Below are positions 32,778 through 38,992 of a DNA stretch of 64,000 nucleotides, one piece after another (position 1 is the first letter of the stretch; each line of letters opens with the position of its first letter). The notes under the pieces are model-generated. The model saw only the letters and a program-made list of their open reading frames with translations. It was not told the DNA's origin and ran no database searches. This DNA is from Pedobacter sp. SYSU D00535 (GTDB lineage Bacteria > Bacteroidota > Bacteroidia > Sphingobacteriales > Sphingobacteriaceae). A program made the translations under genes and the position numbers. The stretch spans positions 124,001 to 188,000 of the forward strand of contig NZ_JAFEWD010000003.1 of assembly GCF_017355855.1 (NCBI RefSeq), in the 5' to 3' direction.

Positions 32778-34589
32778 TTAGCCCAGTGAATCGCCACGCA
32801 AAGTACGAAAGCGCTTCCGTGCTTCAGTAACATGCAGGCTTCCGGGATAGTCGGTGATTATTTTTTGGTAGAACACCTTTGCTTTTTCGGCGTCATTCAG
32901 CCGGGTTTCATAAAGATCCCCCAAAATAAAAAGAGCGTCGTCGGCCCATAGGTCGAAGCTAAAATTGTCTACGATAAGTTGCAATTGTGCTGTGGCCTTC
33001 GACAAATCGTTTTGTTTTAAATAGATTCTTGATTTCGCCATCAGGATATCATCGGCCAGGGAATTTCCCGGAAAAAGCACGTTAATGCTATCGAGCGCCG
33101 TTAACGCTTTATCCAGCATGTTGCTGAAGATGTAATGGTCAGCACGAGCATAGATCTTTAACGCATTTGTATCCGCTCTTGTGGCGGTGTTTTCCTGAAT
33201 TAGCAAACTCAGATTCAGTGCGTCATTTGCAATTAGTTGAGAGGTGGAGCTCTTCAATACGTCCAGCTGGGCTTTAGCCCAGGCAAAATCCCCCTGAAAA
33301 TAAGAAAGCTTGGCATTCCGGAATTTTGCTTCCTGGCCCGCGGGCTCGTTCGCGAAATCTTTCTCTACCTGGCCGTAAATTAAGGCAGCTTCCCAAACTT
33401 CACCTGTTAGTATGTAGACGTCGGCTAGTTCCAGCTTAATTTGGGAAACTATAGAGGGGGGCAAGGCTGGTACTTTTAGAGTCTCCTCTAATAGAAGTTC
33501 GGCCTCTTTCGCTTTTCCCAGATGCTGAGCTTGCAGCCGTGCCAATTGTCGCATCGCAAACACAGTGTTCCTGCCTTTACCAAATTCTTTTAGCATCTCC
33601 AGGTATTCTTTTTCCAGGGTAGTGAGCTCTGCCGGACTAAACTTCCTGGCAGTAAGCTGCTCGCTTTTAGCACTGAGGATCTGGATTTTGGAAGGGATGT
33701 AATATTGGTTTTTATCTCCCTTGGTAAGCAGGTATTGAAAACCTTCGACGGCTGGTGCGTAAGCTTTATTAGCTACAAGTAAAAGCGACAAATCATATAC
33801 ACGGTCTCCTTCTTCCTTCAATCGTTTGTCAAGCGCGATCGTCTGCCGCAAAGCTAAATCATATTGCTTCTGCTGCAGATAGACCCAGGAAAGCAGCTCA
33901 GAATAGGCAAGGTTCTGAGGATTTTTTTGTAGTCTTTTGATAAGCGTTTGTCTTAGCCCATTGTAATCTTCCGGTGTTTCAAATACCATCGAAAAGGTAC
34001 TCTTCGCCTGATTCACGATCTGATCGCTCTCCTGCGGAACACTCATCAGGTTAATATATTCCTCTACCAGCATGGGCTTGTTCTTCTGAAAGCGATACAA
34101 AGACAGCAGGTCAAAGGCAAATGCCATGTCGTCATTTAAAACTTTTCTGCCGTTCAGCAGCGTCTTTATGGCATAGTCAAACGCATCAGCACGGTAGAAG
34201 TTGATTGACAACTCGCGGATAGCGTATTCATTTTTTTGAAGATTCCGAACCAGGCCGTTGTACCAGTCGGCCGCCTTTTCTTGCTGACCGCGTTCCTGCA
34301 GTAATTTCCCGTAATCTACCTGGTAGGTGTAGTTGTCAGGGAATGTTTTTATCATGTTTTTGATCACCTTTTCTGCTTCATCATGTTTTTTTAAGTTGAA
34401 AAGGGAATTCAGATACTGGTCGTAGTAGCCCGCGCTATTTTGCCTGAAAAGCTTCTCATAGATAGTGAGAGCCTTATCAAACTCGCCGTTCTGATAATAT
34501 TGCGCAGCCAGGGCATCCTCATTGCTTCTTTGAGAGAAAGCGGAGGAGATAGTAAAAATGAGTAGTAAATGCAGAACCAGTTTTTTCAT
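32778..34589 (-). CDS. Tetratricopeptide-repeat protein, periplasmic
   Basis: The product has 603 residues with an N-terminal signal peptide (ending SSAFSQ). It is all-helical with many TPR-type repeats (AAQYYQNGEFDKALTIYEKLF at residue 30 on, ADDILMAKSRIYLKQNDLSKA, ADDALFILGDLYETRLND near the C-terminus). The arrangement resembles gliding/BamD-like TPR scaffolds of Bacteroidetes. A TAnnTTTA octamer at 34610-34617 on the minus strand may be its promoter. Partner unknown; probably an envelope assembly scaffold. Confidence 0.85.
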   Translation of the reverse strand: MKKLVLHLLLIFTISSAFSQRSNEDALAAQYYQNGEFDKALTIYEKLFRQNSAGYYDQYLNSLFNLKKHDEAEKVIKNMIKTFPDNYTYQVDYGKLLQERGQQEKAADWYNGLVRNLQKNEYAIRELSINFYRADAFDYAIKTLLNGRKVLNDDMAFAFDLLSLYRFQKNKPMLVEEYINLMSVPQESDQIVNQAKSTFSMVFETPEDYNGLRQTLIKRLQKNPQNLAYSELLSWVYLQQKQYDLALRQTIALDKRLKEEGDRVYDLSLLLVANKAYAPAVEGFQYLLTKGDKNQYYIPSKIQILSAKSEQLTARKFSPAELTTLEKEYLEMLKEFGKGRNTVFAMRQLARLQAQHLGKAKEAELLLEETLKVPALPPSIVSQIKLELADVYILTGEVWEAALIYGQVEKDFANEPAGQEAKFRNAKLSYFQGDFAWAKAQLDVLKSSTSQLIANDALNLSLLIQENTATRADTNALKIYARADHYIFSNMLDKALTALDSINVLFPGNSLADDILMAKSRIYLKQNDLSKATAQLQLIVDNFSFDLWADDALFILGDLYETRLNDAEKAKVFYQKIITDYPGSLHVTEARKRFRTLRGDSLG

Positions 34590-34738
34590 GCAGCGCTATC
34601 CTTGCTAGTTAAAGATAACGACTAATGCTTTGTTTTAATGTATCTATGTAAAAATGCTGTATTCTAAATGTTACTTCTCTTAAAACCTAAAACGGTTATT
34701 TTAGTAATTCAAACTTGGTTTTTCACAGAGGGGTTCGG

Positions 34739-36625
34739 ATGCTTATGCAAATTATAGTTAAGATCGTTTTATGTATTTTTCTGTTAGGGATCGGTGCCAG
34801 CTGTCGGGAGGGTAAAAATGTAAGAATTGTCCCCGTTGAGGACTTTTTCAGAAGCCCTGAAATGACTAGCTTCCAGATTTCCCCTGACGGACAGTACATC
34901 TCTTACCTGAAACCCTTCAAAAATCGTCTTAATATTTTCGTCCAAACGTTGGATGGCAAAAATGTAAAACGTATCACTGAAATAGACAATAGTAACGTTA
35001 CTTATTATAGTTGGGCCAGCAATGATCAGCTGTTGTTCAGAACGGATCGGAGCAGTGGCGCTTTCCTGTATTCAGTGTTTAAAGATGGGAGCAATTTTAA
35101 AGAGCTGATTTCGGATGAACGGGTTAATTTGAAGCTAATCAATACCAAAAATTTTTATGGAAACCGGGTGCTGGTGGGGTTGAACAGGCGCGACTCTACC
35201 GTGTTTGATGCCTATAGCCTCAATCTCCGCACTGGCGACCTGAAGCTGGAGGAGAAAAATCCAGGAAACATTTTCCAATGGTATGCCGACGAGAATGGAA
35301 AGCTTAGGATGGCAATGGCTAGCGACGGTGTGAATGAAACCTTGCTATTTCGGATCAGTGAGAATGATCGGTTTAAGCCTGTTATCTCAAATAACTTCAA
35401 GAGCCGGATTATTCCTGTAGGCTTTTGCGGAAGCAACAAGAATTGTATTTATGCATTGTCGAATGTCAATCGCGACAAGCTGCATCTTGTCAAATTCAAC
35501 TGCAATACGGGTAAAGAGATGGAGACGATCTTTAGTCATGACGAGGTGGATGTTTCCGAAGGGGGCTACTCGAACAAACGCCGTAAACTTATCTTCGCTG
35601 GTTATGAAACCTGGAAAAAGGAACGGCACTATATAGACGATTCTTCAAGAGTTGTTTACGCAGCTTTGCAGAAGCAAATGCCGAATACAGAGATCGTTCT
35701 AGTTGATCAGGACGCTCTAGGCACGAAATACATTGTTAAAACGTTTACTGATCGCTCTCCCGGTGCCTTCTACCTCTATACAACAGCTGATAATAAACTT
35801 CTGAAGCTTAGTGATGTTAACTCTTCTATTCAAGAGGAAGAGATGTGTAAAATGGAGCCGCTATCTTTCAAGAGCCGCGACGGAAAGGTAATCCATGGGT
35901 ACCTGACCCTGCCTCTGAACGGAACCGCTAAAAATTTACCCGTAGTGGTGCTGCCTCATGGAGGTCCGTCCAATAGAAACTCCTGGGGATTTAGTGCCGA
36001 AGTGCAATTTCTGGCCAACAGGGGATATGCCGTTTTCCAGATCAACTATCGGGGCTCCGATGGCTATGGGAAGCAGTTTTGGATCAGTGGCTTTAAAAAG
36101 TGGGGAACGGATATGCAGAATGATATTACGGATGGAGTAAAATGGTTGATTAGTGAAGGCGTAGCCAACCCAAAGAAAATTGCTATTTACGGCTCCGGTT
36201 TCGGTGGGTTCAGCGCCATGCATGGCCTCTGTTTTCAACCCGATTTGTATGTCTGCGGTGCCTCTCAGTCGGGATATTTAAATTTGTTTACCTATCTCAA
36301 AGCCGTTCCGCCTTATTATAAACCTATCCTCCAGATGTATTATGAGATGGTAGGGAATCCCGAAAAGGACATGGATTACCTGAGAGCCGTTTCTCCTGTT
36401 TTTCATGCGGATAAGATAAAAGCTCCGGTTCTGATTGCGCAGGATGCGAAGGATCCACGGGTTAAGGTGAACGAAACAAACCAGTTTGTGAAGGAGCTCA
36501 AGAAAAGGCAAATTCCTGTTACCTACATCGTGAAAGAGAAGGAGCGTTATACCTTGCGTAACCCCGAGAACAGAATTGATTTCTACAGGCAGTTGGAAGA
36601 TTTTCTTGAAAAAAATCTGAAATAG
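34739..36625 (+). CDS. S9 prolyl-oligopeptidase-family lipoprotein lacking catalytic Ser and His
   Basis: The start is ATG 34739 (MLMQIIVKIVLCIFLLGIGASC), a lipoprotein-type signal with C22; the frame from TTG 34715 is less likely. The 628 residues comprise an N-terminal beta-propeller (FQISPDGQYISYLKP and WD-like repeats) and an alpha/beta-hydrolase domain. The domain is well preserved (VVLPHGGPSNRNSWGF, GYAVFQINYRGSDGYGKQFW). Yet the nucleophile elbow reads YGSGFGGF, placing Gly at 487 where Ser stands in GGSxGG. The catalytic His position reads ERYTLRNPEN with Y604. Asp572 (KDPRV) remains. Probably non-catalytic. It is 11 nt upstream of a histidine kinase. Confidence 0.88.
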   Translation: MLMQIIVKIVLCIFLLGIGASCREGKNVRIVPVEDFFRSPEMTSFQISPDGQYISYLKPFKNRLNIFVQTLDGKNVKRITEIDNSNVTYYSWASNDQLLFRTDRSSGAFLYSVFKDGSNFKELISDERVNLKLINTKNFYGNRVLVGLNRRDSTVFDAYSLNLRTGDLKLEEKNPGNIFQWYADENGKLRMAMASDGVNETLLFRISENDRFKPVISNNFKSRIIPVGFCGSNKNCIYALSNVNRDKLHLVKFNCNTGKEMETIFSHDEVDVSEGGYSNKRRKLIFAGYETWKKERHYIDDSSRVVYAALQKQMPNTEIVLVDQDALGTKYIVKTFTDRSPGAFYLYTTADNKLLKLSDVNSSIQEEEMCKMEPLSFKSRDGKVIHGYLTLPLNGTAKNLPVVVLPHGGPSNRNSWGFSAEVQFLANRGYAVFQINYRGSDGYGKQFWISGFKKWGTDMQNDITDGVKWLISEGVANPKKIAIYGSGFGGFSAMHGLCFQPDLYVCGASQSGYLNLFTYLKAVPPYYKPILQMYYEMVGNPEKDMDYLRAVSPVFHADKIKAPVLIAQDAKDPRVKVNETNQFVKELKKRQIPVTYIVKEKERYTLRNPENRIDFYRQLEDFLEKNLK

Positions 36626-36636
36626 AGATTTGTGGA

Positions 36637-38304
36637 ATGAGATTTCAAGCTTCTTCATACCGGAAAAATTTCTTCCTTAATATAACCTTCATCGTTTTAG
36701 TGCTATTGTCTTTGCTGGCAGCACTGTCTATCGCTTATAATCTTACGAAAGACCAAGTTCGAAGTGAGTTTGAGGCAAAAAAAATAGATGTGCTGGAGGA
36801 AACCGTGAGGCCCTATAATGATTTTTTTCAGAACACGTTGCCTGAGGTCTCTTTTTATCAAGGCTACCTTGATTCTACTTCTGCTGCAAAGTTTGCATAC
36901 ACTGTTTTGCGGGAGTACAAGTTTATTTCCAGCATCGTCTTTTACGATACTCAGATCTCGAACCGGCCTTCACCGATTGCTTTTCGATCGCATAATCTCT
37001 ATATATCCCCGGTCTCCATTTATCAATTCAAAAGAGATAGCACCAATTTTACGCTTATTTATCACCGTCGAAATGAGGGTCCTATTTCACTGCGTTACCT
37101 GGAGGAGTTTAATAAAGTTGCCGGGAAATTAGCTGCGCATGTTGAGGTTACAGACTCGGTAAAGGCAATGGCAGGCGAAGAGTTTGCAAACGTATTTTAC
37201 AATATCACGCAAAATCGCGTAACGTATATGAATATCCCCCGGGAGGAAGATCTGAAGGTATTTAAACAGCTGATGTTTGACCCCTCAGAGCGACCGGTTG
37301 TTTTTGAGCAGGATGTGCTATCGTTTAAACTTAACGCCTACGAGTTCAGAGTGGTAAATAGCCACCCACAACTCTATCAATTCGTGACTATTAAACCAAT
37401 TGTTTATGAGGCGGTGGGCGAAGGCGACAGGTACGTTACTACGGAAATACCACTATCAGGCGCTTTTGCCGATTATAAGCTCTATTTCAGGTCCACTGAA
37501 GAACACCTGTTGTCCCGGGTTAATAGTAAATTCTTGCCGGTGGCGCTAATTATCCTGGTTGTATATCTGGTGCTCGGCTTTATCGGTTACTTGATTTACA
37601 GGAACCTCTATATCAATAACCGCCTGTTCAAGCTGCAATACGACTTCCTCAATAACCTAACTCACGAGTTTAAGACACCTGTAAGTGTAATCAAGATTGC
37701 CGGGAATAATATCAGAAGCGCAAAAGAGCTTTCAGAGCGGGAGCGTTTGCATTATGGAAAAATTCTTGATGAGGAGGCGGATAAGCTGAATGATCTGATG
37801 AACAAGCTGCTGTCGTTCACACAGATCGAAAACCAGAGTATTCAAATCAAAAAGGAGGAGATTAACCTCGACGTTTTTGTTCAGAATCTTGTTGATGCTT
37901 ACCAGATCAAGTATCCGGAGTTTGAGATCAAGTATGATATCCGCAATGTAGAGCGATTTAACAGCGACCCTGTATTGCTTACCAGCATTTTTCAGAATTT
38001 GATTGATAATGCCTATAAATATTCCATGCCCAAACGAAAGATCCTGGATATTTCTATTAGTTTAGAGAGGGGCAATATTATCTTCCGATTTGCTGATCAG
38101 GGTATTGGCATCCCCAAAGAAGAGATGAACAATATTTTCCAGAAGTTCTACCGCATTCAAAGTCAGTACAACCAGCAGGGTAGCGTGGGCCTGGGATTGG
38201 CTTTTTGCAAAGAACTGGTTAATTTTATGAACGGACAGATTTCTGTAAAGAGTAAAGTCGGAGTCGGCTCTGAGTTTACTATAATACTTCCTTATAATGA
38301 CTAA
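36637..38304 (+). CDS. Membrane sensor histidine kinase
   Basis: The product has 555 residues. A first helix (FFLNITFIVLVLLSLLAALSI), a periplasmic sensor region of about 270 residues and a second helix (VALIILVVYLVLGFIGYLIY) precede the kinase. The phosphorylated His is H343 in NNLTHEFKTPVSVIK, followed by the N box LIDNAYKYS, G1 DQGIGIPKEE and G2 VGLGLAFCKE. The sensor region has no recognisable domain. It overlaps the response-regulator start by 8 nt and follows the S9-like lipoprotein gene by 11 nt, so the three likely form one operon. Confidence 0.94.
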   Translation: MRFQASSYRKNFFLNITFIVLVLLSLLAALSIAYNLTKDQVRSEFEAKKIDVLEETVRPYNDFFQNTLPEVSFYQGYLDSTSAAKFAYTVLREYKFISSIVFYDTQISNRPSPIAFRSHNLYISPVSIYQFKRDSTNFTLIYHRRNEGPISLRYLEEFNKVAGKLAAHVEVTDSVKAMAGEEFANVFYNITQNRVTYMNIPREEDLKVFKQLMFDPSERPVVFEQDVLSFKLNAYEFRVVNSHPQLYQFVTIKPIVYEAVGEGDRYVTTEIPLSGAFADYKLYFRSTEEHLLSRVNSKFLPVALIILVVYLVLGFIGYLIYRNLYINNRLFKLQYDFLNNLTHEFKTPVSVIKIAGNNIRSAKELSERERLHYGKILDEEADKLNDLMNKLLSFTQIENQSIQIKKEEINLDVFVQNLVDAYQIKYPEFEIKYDIRNVERFNSDPVLLTSIFQNLIDNAYKYSMPKRKILDISISLERGNIIFRFADQGIGIPKEEMNNIFQKFYRIQSQYNQQGSVGLGLAFCKELVNFMNGQISVKSKVGVGSEFTIILPYND

Positions 38305-38992
38305 CATGAAGAAAGATATCAAAGTTGCCATTGTTGAAGATGATGAAAACCTTCGGTTTCTGGTTGCCCACCGCCTGCAATCAGAAGGGTATACAGTACT
38401 TGAAGCATCGGATGGAGATGAAGCTGAGAAATTGATTCTGGAAGAAAAGCCAGAAATTGTATTGTTGGACTGGATGCTGCCAGGAAAACAAGGATCGGAT
38501 GTGTGCAAGGCCGTGAGGGAAAAAGGTTTTGAAAACATCGTGATTATGATGACTGCTAAAGCGCAGGACGTTGATAAGATTGATGCCTATAGTTTCGGAG
38601 TAAGCGACTATGTCACTAAGCCGTTTAACATGGACGTATTGGTAGCGCTGATTGAGAACAAGGTGAAATTTGTAATTAACAACGAACGCTCTGAGGTAGG
38701 CAAGTTCGGAAATATGGAACATCATCCGAATACTCATTCGCTATTGAAGGATGGAAAGAAGATCGAACTTACTATTCTTGAGAACCGAATTCTGCTTTAT
38801 TTTCTTAAAAATGCCAATAAGGTGATTCACCGGGATGAGCTGATGATGGTAGTATGGGGATATAATTCGGATGTGAACACGCGCACGCTAGACATGCACA
38901 TCGTACGGCTGCGTAAGAAGATTGAAGACAATCCGGACTCACCTCATTATCTCCAAACGGTACGGGGAATAGGGTATAAATTTGTAGCATAA
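38297..38992 (+). CDS. OmpR/PhoB-family response regulator
   Basis: The product has 231 residues. Receiver domain with acidic pocket IVEDDEN and phospho-acceptor D58 in VLLDWMLPGKQG, switch MMTAKAQ, and Lys in YVTKPFN. The C-terminal winged-helix domain has LDMHIVRLRKKIEDNP and TVRGIGYKF. ATG 38297 is used; ATG 38306 is an alternative. It is coupled to the kinase gene. Target genes are not evident from the sequence. Confidence 0.95.
   Translation: MTNMKKDIKVAIVEDDENLRFLVAHRLQSEGYTVLEASDGDEAEKLILEEKPEIVLLDWMLPGKQGSDVCKAVREKGFENIVIMMTAKAQDVDKIDAYSFGVSDYVTKPFNMDVLVALIENKVKFVINNERSEVGKFGNMEHHPNTHSLLKDGKKIELTILENRILLYFLKNANKVIHRDELMMVVWGYNSDVNTRTLDMHIVRLRKKIEDNPDSPHYLQTVRGIGYKFVA

Follow-up and report, generated by a model that had tools for sequence, protein, structure and literature searches.

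The window analyzed here is a 64,000-nucleotide stretch of the Pedobacter sp. SYSU D00535 genome. It contains a predicted three-gene operon with a short conserved element 5' of it and a divergent neighboring gene, as follows:

32778..34589, minus strand: divergent TPR protein, syntenic neighbor of the S9 operon (Pfam and locus scan)
34659..34674, plus strand: 16-bp element GTATTCTAAATGTTAC, 5' of the operon, with a pattern conserved in many genera
34739..36625, plus strand: S9-fold pseudopeptidase lipoprotein (propeller plus alpha/beta-hydrolase), 628 aa (Pfam, phmmer)
36637..38304, plus strand: sensor histidine kinase (HK), HisKA plus HATPase_c (Pfam)
38297..38992, plus strand: OmpR/PhoB-type response regulator, Response_reg plus Trans_reg_C (Pfam)

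The start of the S9 gene was taken as the ATG at 34739, as in an earlier sequence-only reading of this DNA; the open frame itself opens at a TTG at 34715. In the window sequence, 11 nt separate the S9 stop from the HK start (36625 and 36637) and the HK and regulator genes share 8 nt (38297-38304), in agreement with the spacing and overlap reported by that reading. The S9 protein matches Peptidase_S9 (E 1.5e-40, Pfam), and by reading of its sequence Cys22 is a putative lipidation site; this column is a Cys in 137/137 readable S9 copies of the Sphingobacteriaceae-like family. The window genome contains two other S9 matches, both of them distant, with identities of 24 and 23% across a portion of the query. 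The TPR neighbor was matched in 72 of the 89 related loci scanned.

The S9 protein of the window lacks the catalytic Ser and His

The translated S9 protein contains the motif G485 S486 G487 F488 G489 G490, together with D572 and Y604. When compared with solved structures by phmmer, its closest relative was the S9 acylaminoacyl peptidase 5l8s (4.6e-41); in the alignment, G487 occupies the place of the Ser in the GGSYGG of this enzyme, and Y604 that of the His in its EGHGF. 5l8s carries Ser and His where the window protein has Gly and Tyr. Sequence similarity (Pfam, phmmer) and fold (by way of a model of the relative L004, which resembles 5l8s) place the protein in the S9 family, and D572 is the one member of the catalytic Ser-Asp-His that it retains. 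The sequence-only reading had claimed this combination, with Gly487 in place of the nucleophile, Tyr604 in place of the His, and Asp572 and the S9 fold preserved, and had named an alignment with active S9 peptidases as a check; each of these claims held.

Ser486 was considered as a substitute nucleophile and rejected, as this position varies freely among the 137 readable copies (N 38, S 24, F 20, T 17, A 16, Y 11, G 7, and four more residues in 1 copy each). The window protein has its final His at residue 556, leaving none close to 604 in the sequence. A working Ser486 with a nearby His, which the earlier reading had named as grounds for its own refutation, is therefore not what the sequence indicates. 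A sequencing error or a lone pseudogene was likewise rejected, since the Gly and Tyr are also found in both other genomes of the genus; the low dN/dS of dead pairs elsewhere (see below) counters it too.

The S9, HK, and regulator genes are linked across the family

Among 301 genomes drawn at the level of the Sphingobacteriaceae-like family, 291 had an S9 match at 1e-30 or better. We read 140 of these 291: the top 30 matches, another 30 selected by genus and for a weak score, and 80 of the listed matches; this sample is non-random. The HK gene lies directly 3' of the S9 gene, on the same strand, in 138/138 loci uncut by a contig end; L065 and L067 were left out of this count, and show no HK because both reach the contig end. 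The gap between the two genes, estimated from the alignment start, is -4 to 43 nt in 136/138 loci; the exceptions are L143 (186 nt) and L064, which is a split copy. The regulator is present in 80/80 relatives with sufficient flank, so that the lipoprotein gene adjoins kinase and regulator genes, and 133 of the 140 S9 copies are 600 aa or longer and are followed by a kinase gene.

Unlinking of the S9-HK pair in relatives, another condition under which the sequence-only reading would have failed, is rejected by these counts. That reading had proposed to look for co-occurrence of S9-like pseudoenzymes with this kinase; an S9 copy adjoins the kinase in all 138 loci, and the catalytic Ser is replaced in 104/137 readable copies. 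Judged from these gene orders, the S9-HK pair is no local accident. Shared transcription alone would likewise hold the genes together, which counts against reading their linkage as a partnership. Distances among the S9 proteins follow those among the HK sensor regions beyond what the kinase domain accounts for (partial r 0.58 over 130 loci, with pairs non-independent); this is a soft result, open to shared-locus and rate effects.

Some loci lack S9 or carry a broken copy

Ten family genomes have no S9 match. Five of these, all of genus g10, have a full-length HK (43 to 46% identical); at all five loci (L186-L190) the HK and regulator were matched and S9 was not, the TPR neighbor is also present, and the genomes are small. 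In L168 (g10), 74 nt separate the HK from the divergent TPR gene. The sensor/kinase distance ratio is 1.76-1.81 in g10 versus a mean of 1.70 (sd 0.15) in other loci, so by this measure the g10 sensor region appears to evolve at no unusual speed. Both S9 and the HK sensor are missing from G066, although its completeness is rated at 100%, and no full-length HK was found in the remaining four S9-less genomes, which are rated 71 to 83% complete.

S9 is split over two frames, with HK and regulator intact, in two g16 loci (L196 of G186 and L197 of G141); these splits may be assembly errors. The g10 kinases without S9, with their ordinary sensor rate, and the two split copies speak against an obligate role of S9. 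Additional S9 copies were also seen: the second copy in G030 (L198:3964-7293) has EGHGF and is interrupted by a 444-aa frame that is transposase-like by eye, and the single g16 paralogue read, in G180, has GGSHGG and EGHGF.

A 16-bp element precedes the operon in most loci

The pattern GTAnnnTnnnnGTTRC occurs 5' of S9 in 102/132 loci tested versus 0/132 for the reversed pattern, a count that flatters the element because these loci also served to derive the pattern. It is absent from 30/132 upstream regions, including each of the 10 regions read from genera g3, g7, and g14. None was found on the HK strand in the g10 loci read, and 4/5 of these have one match on the opposite strand. The exact GTATTCTAAATGTTAC form occurs once in the window genome. 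With at most 2 mismatches, the genome has 38 sites for the element and 42 for the reversed control, which does not permit other regulon targets to be named, and with at most 3 mismatches there are 3 sites in the window versus 4.19 expected; a regulon acting through the element was rejected on these counts. We propose the element as a putative binding site of the regulator, which may serve autoregulation.

The data on linkage, S9-less loci, and the upstream element bear on an explanation in which the S9 protein is an output of the system, that is, a periplasmic binding or scaffold protein that would be co-expressed because it is controlled by the kinase and regulator, and would make no contact with the kinase. 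Such an output would fit the tight spacing of the genes, the conserved upstream element, and the retention of the HK without S9 in g10, but the same order and tight spacing throughout the family and, more softly, the correlation between S9 and sensor distances point away from it, and we regard it as unlikely.

The HK sensor region appears to be specific to the family

The N-terminal region of the HK (36637-37626) has two long helices, which we interpret as TM1 and TM2, on either side of a periplasmic region in which no Pfam match was found. When the sensor regions of 68 relatives were compared with Pfam, each family that was matched came up in 3 members at most, with a best E of 0.0073; matches of this kind, such as one to a viral capsid name (3/68), were rejected as being at chance level. 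The first 330 residues of the window HK gave an AlphaFold2 model with a pLDDT of 86.9 and a pTM of 0.76. In VIA, this model moderately matched double-Cache sensors (best Z 9.8), and most of the 50 matches listed were chemoreceptor and kinase sensor domains, the majority of which we take to be Cache domains. The best Foldseek E was 2e-3, with none at or below 0.001. The earlier statement that the periplasmic region has no recognizable domain therefore stands for sequence and holds in part for fold, where the model has a moderate double-Cache likeness.

A single chain that fused the S9 protein and HK sensor of L004 was modeled with a mean pLDDT of 85.3 and a pTM of 0.62, and had no readable interface. 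The S9 part of this model resembles acylaminoacyl peptidases; 5l8s, the top solved relative by sequence, is also the top one by structure for L004 (Z 35.4, rmsd 3.5 over 580 residues).

We compared these proteins with S9 homologues from outside the family, taking the best 22 (41 to 47% identity) of the 48 genomes from the class that matched at 1e-40 and a flank of up to 1.5 kb, less at contig ends (∼0.2 kb in L213). All of these 22 carry GxSYGG, Asp, and EGHGF, and within that flank an HK match was found beside none of them. BLAST with the HK sensor matched 10/295 class genomes, all ten from the Sphingobacteriaceae-like family. A profile of 68 HK-sensor members gave a weak and partial match in 1/285 outside genomes (G562, E 4e-4, model positions 11-75); we interpret the matched part as the first membrane helix with adjoining residues, and remote homologues outside the family were rejected on this search. 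From these searches, the HK sensor region looks family-specific. Since the outside S9 proteins read are intact without an HK in the flank covered and the sensor seems restricted to the family, the kinase appears to be a partner, particular to this family, of an enzyme that was captured.

Catalytic residues have been lost repeatedly at this locus

The active site was readable in 137 of the 140 copies (L064, L065, and L067 being unreadable). The Ser column of these copies contains G 98, S 33, N 2, E 2, and R 2, the catalytic Asp is kept in 135/137, and the whole Ser, Asp, and His triad is kept in 32/137, so catalysis may matter in some lineages. The Gly codons are mostly GGT or GGC and the Ser codons AGT or AGC; a single base change thus suffices for Ser to Gly.

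A tree was built from 110 family rows and 21 outside rows, with the active-site columns removed, and rooted on the active homologues. Copies shorter than 600 aa or unreadable at Ser and the short outside row L223 were excluded, and genus g13 was thinned from 46 to 23 rows. The outside rows form a single clade. On the rooted tree there are ∼16 Ser losses (parsimony gives 15 changes), a count that is approximate because the fast tree warns of long branches, and 10 His losses (parsimony gives 10 changes). Every His loss falls within a Ser-loss lineage, and 11 rows have lost Ser and kept His. L129 is the single row with Ser and without His; it lies within a Ser-less clade and was counted as part of it. 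The window protein sits in an 11-row clade (genera g1, g11, and g20) without Ser and His.

Residues around the active site have also changed. Phe has replaced the Tyr after Ser (position 488), which is invariant in the outside rows, in 97% of the 31 intact rows and in 96% of the 78 dead ones. Two more residues invariant outside, the HGGPW Trp and the Gly that follows His, are no longer the commonest residues in the 31 intact-triad rows. Relaxation of pocket residues even where the triad is intact suggests that catalysis may have weakened before Ser was lost.

This relaxation and the ∼16 Ser losses with linkage kept make it improbable that the S9 protein is a working peptidase in many species, with its product, or its action on the kinase or a ligand, as the signal and the dead copies limited to binding. 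The 32/137 copies that hold Ser, Asp, and His would agree with a working peptidase, as would proteolysis of the kinase VgrS in Xanthomonas, with which one study (PMC6237974) is reportedly concerned. Fly DPP10, which retains activity, would be a further parallel, as excerpts of PMC4873792 describe it as combining a partner role and catalysis.

Dead S9 copies are under purifying selection

For dN/dS we sampled 25 pairs, 18 dead and 7 intact. The ratio is 0.012-0.151 in 10 of the 18 dead S9 pairs, the other 8 having saturated dS and no ratio, and 0.012-0.076 for the HKs of those dead pairs; in 5 of the 7 intact S9 pairs it is 0.040-0.086. The dead S9 copies are still under purifying selection. 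In each of the three groups (dead, intact, and outside), the propeller is more variable than the hydrolase domain. The hydrolase domain itself is less constrained among dead copies (mean entropy 1.30) than among outside ones (0.68, with group sizes that differ), which weighs against a partner role.

That the S9 gene is a decaying leftover carried by the kinase, as its splitting in G141 and G186 and its absence beside the HK in g10 might imply, is hardly credible given the low dN/dS of dead pairs, which largely refutes decay where dS is measurable, the 133/140 long copies with a downstream kinase, and the Asp kept in 135/137.

Discussion

Based on the above results, we favor, with a probability of about 0.62, a three-component signaling system in which a new kinase captured an active S9 enzyme as its partner in the periplasm, with catalysis dispensable. 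In the ancestor of the Sphingobacteriaceae-like family, an active acylaminoacyl-peptidase-like S9 would have been joined to a new HK with a family-specific periplasmic sensor. The lipoprotein would bind the HK sensor region in the periplasm and, once bound, may tune the kinase in one direction or the other and hence the OmpR-type regulator; this regulator may in addition act on the operon itself via the 16-bp element. Ser, and then His, would have been lost many times with the gene and its place retained, because the partner role would need the fold and not catalysis. Retention of S9 beside the sensor through many losses of catalytic residues suggests that S9 was repurposed as a component for sensing. 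The earlier proposal of a dead peptidase as sensor partner of the kinase survives in part: a pseudoenzyme partner is well supported by comparative genomics, because neither a working Ser486 nor an unlinked gene pair was found at the sequence level, and its dead state is not uniform, as 32/137 copies keep the triad.

The nearest mechanistic precedents, by analogy, would be DPP6 and DPP10, QseG-QseE, and LpqB-MtrB. To our knowledge, QseG is not an S9 protein and LpqB is not an S9 peptidase. According to excerpts of PMC4350108, DPP6 and DPP10 are S9B pseudopeptidases that serve as auxiliary subunits of Kv4 channels, the catalytic Ser being replaced by Asp in DPP6 and by Gly in DPP10, which retains its catalytic His. 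They share with the window protein the S9 propeller-hydrolase fold, the replaced Ser, and, if our reading holds, a role as extracytoplasmic partner of a membrane signaling protein. They differ in serving animal ion channels rather than a bacterial kinase, in having no operon, and in their type II membrane anchor, whereas the window protein has a predicted lipid anchor; DPP10 also has the His where the window protein has Y604.

In E. coli QseE/QseG/QseF, excerpts of PMC6075780 describe the lipoprotein QseG as binding the periplasmic loop of the kinase and controlling its activity. The likeness lies in an operon with kinase, regulator, and lipoprotein, and for the window extends to gene arrangement only; QseEGF differs in gene order and in that QseF, in the same excerpts (PMC6075780), acts on sigma-54 promoters. 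Actinobacterial MtrAB-LpqB also combines a kinase and regulator with an adjoining lipoprotein, and LpqB is reported, in the parts of PMC3353115 and PMC12338722 that concern it, to bind the extracellular domain of the kinase; this system belongs to another phylum and has LpqB downstream (PMC3353115, PMC12338722). No S9-kinase operon appeared among the matches listed in the open-licence PubMed Central literature.

Whether these kinases form a bacterial counterpart of DPP6/DPP10, sensing the periplasm via a captured peptidase with a series from intact to double-dead at the same locus, we judge to be an even question. From such a series, the order of events could be read directly at one locus: Ser first (mostly to Gly), then His, with Asp kept. 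If the partner reading is true, this family offers a bacterial case of an S9 peptidase turned signaling partner, its ∼16 parallel losses at one locus would be replicate natural experiments on the change from enzyme to pseudoenzyme, and the input of this kinase family would be directly testable.
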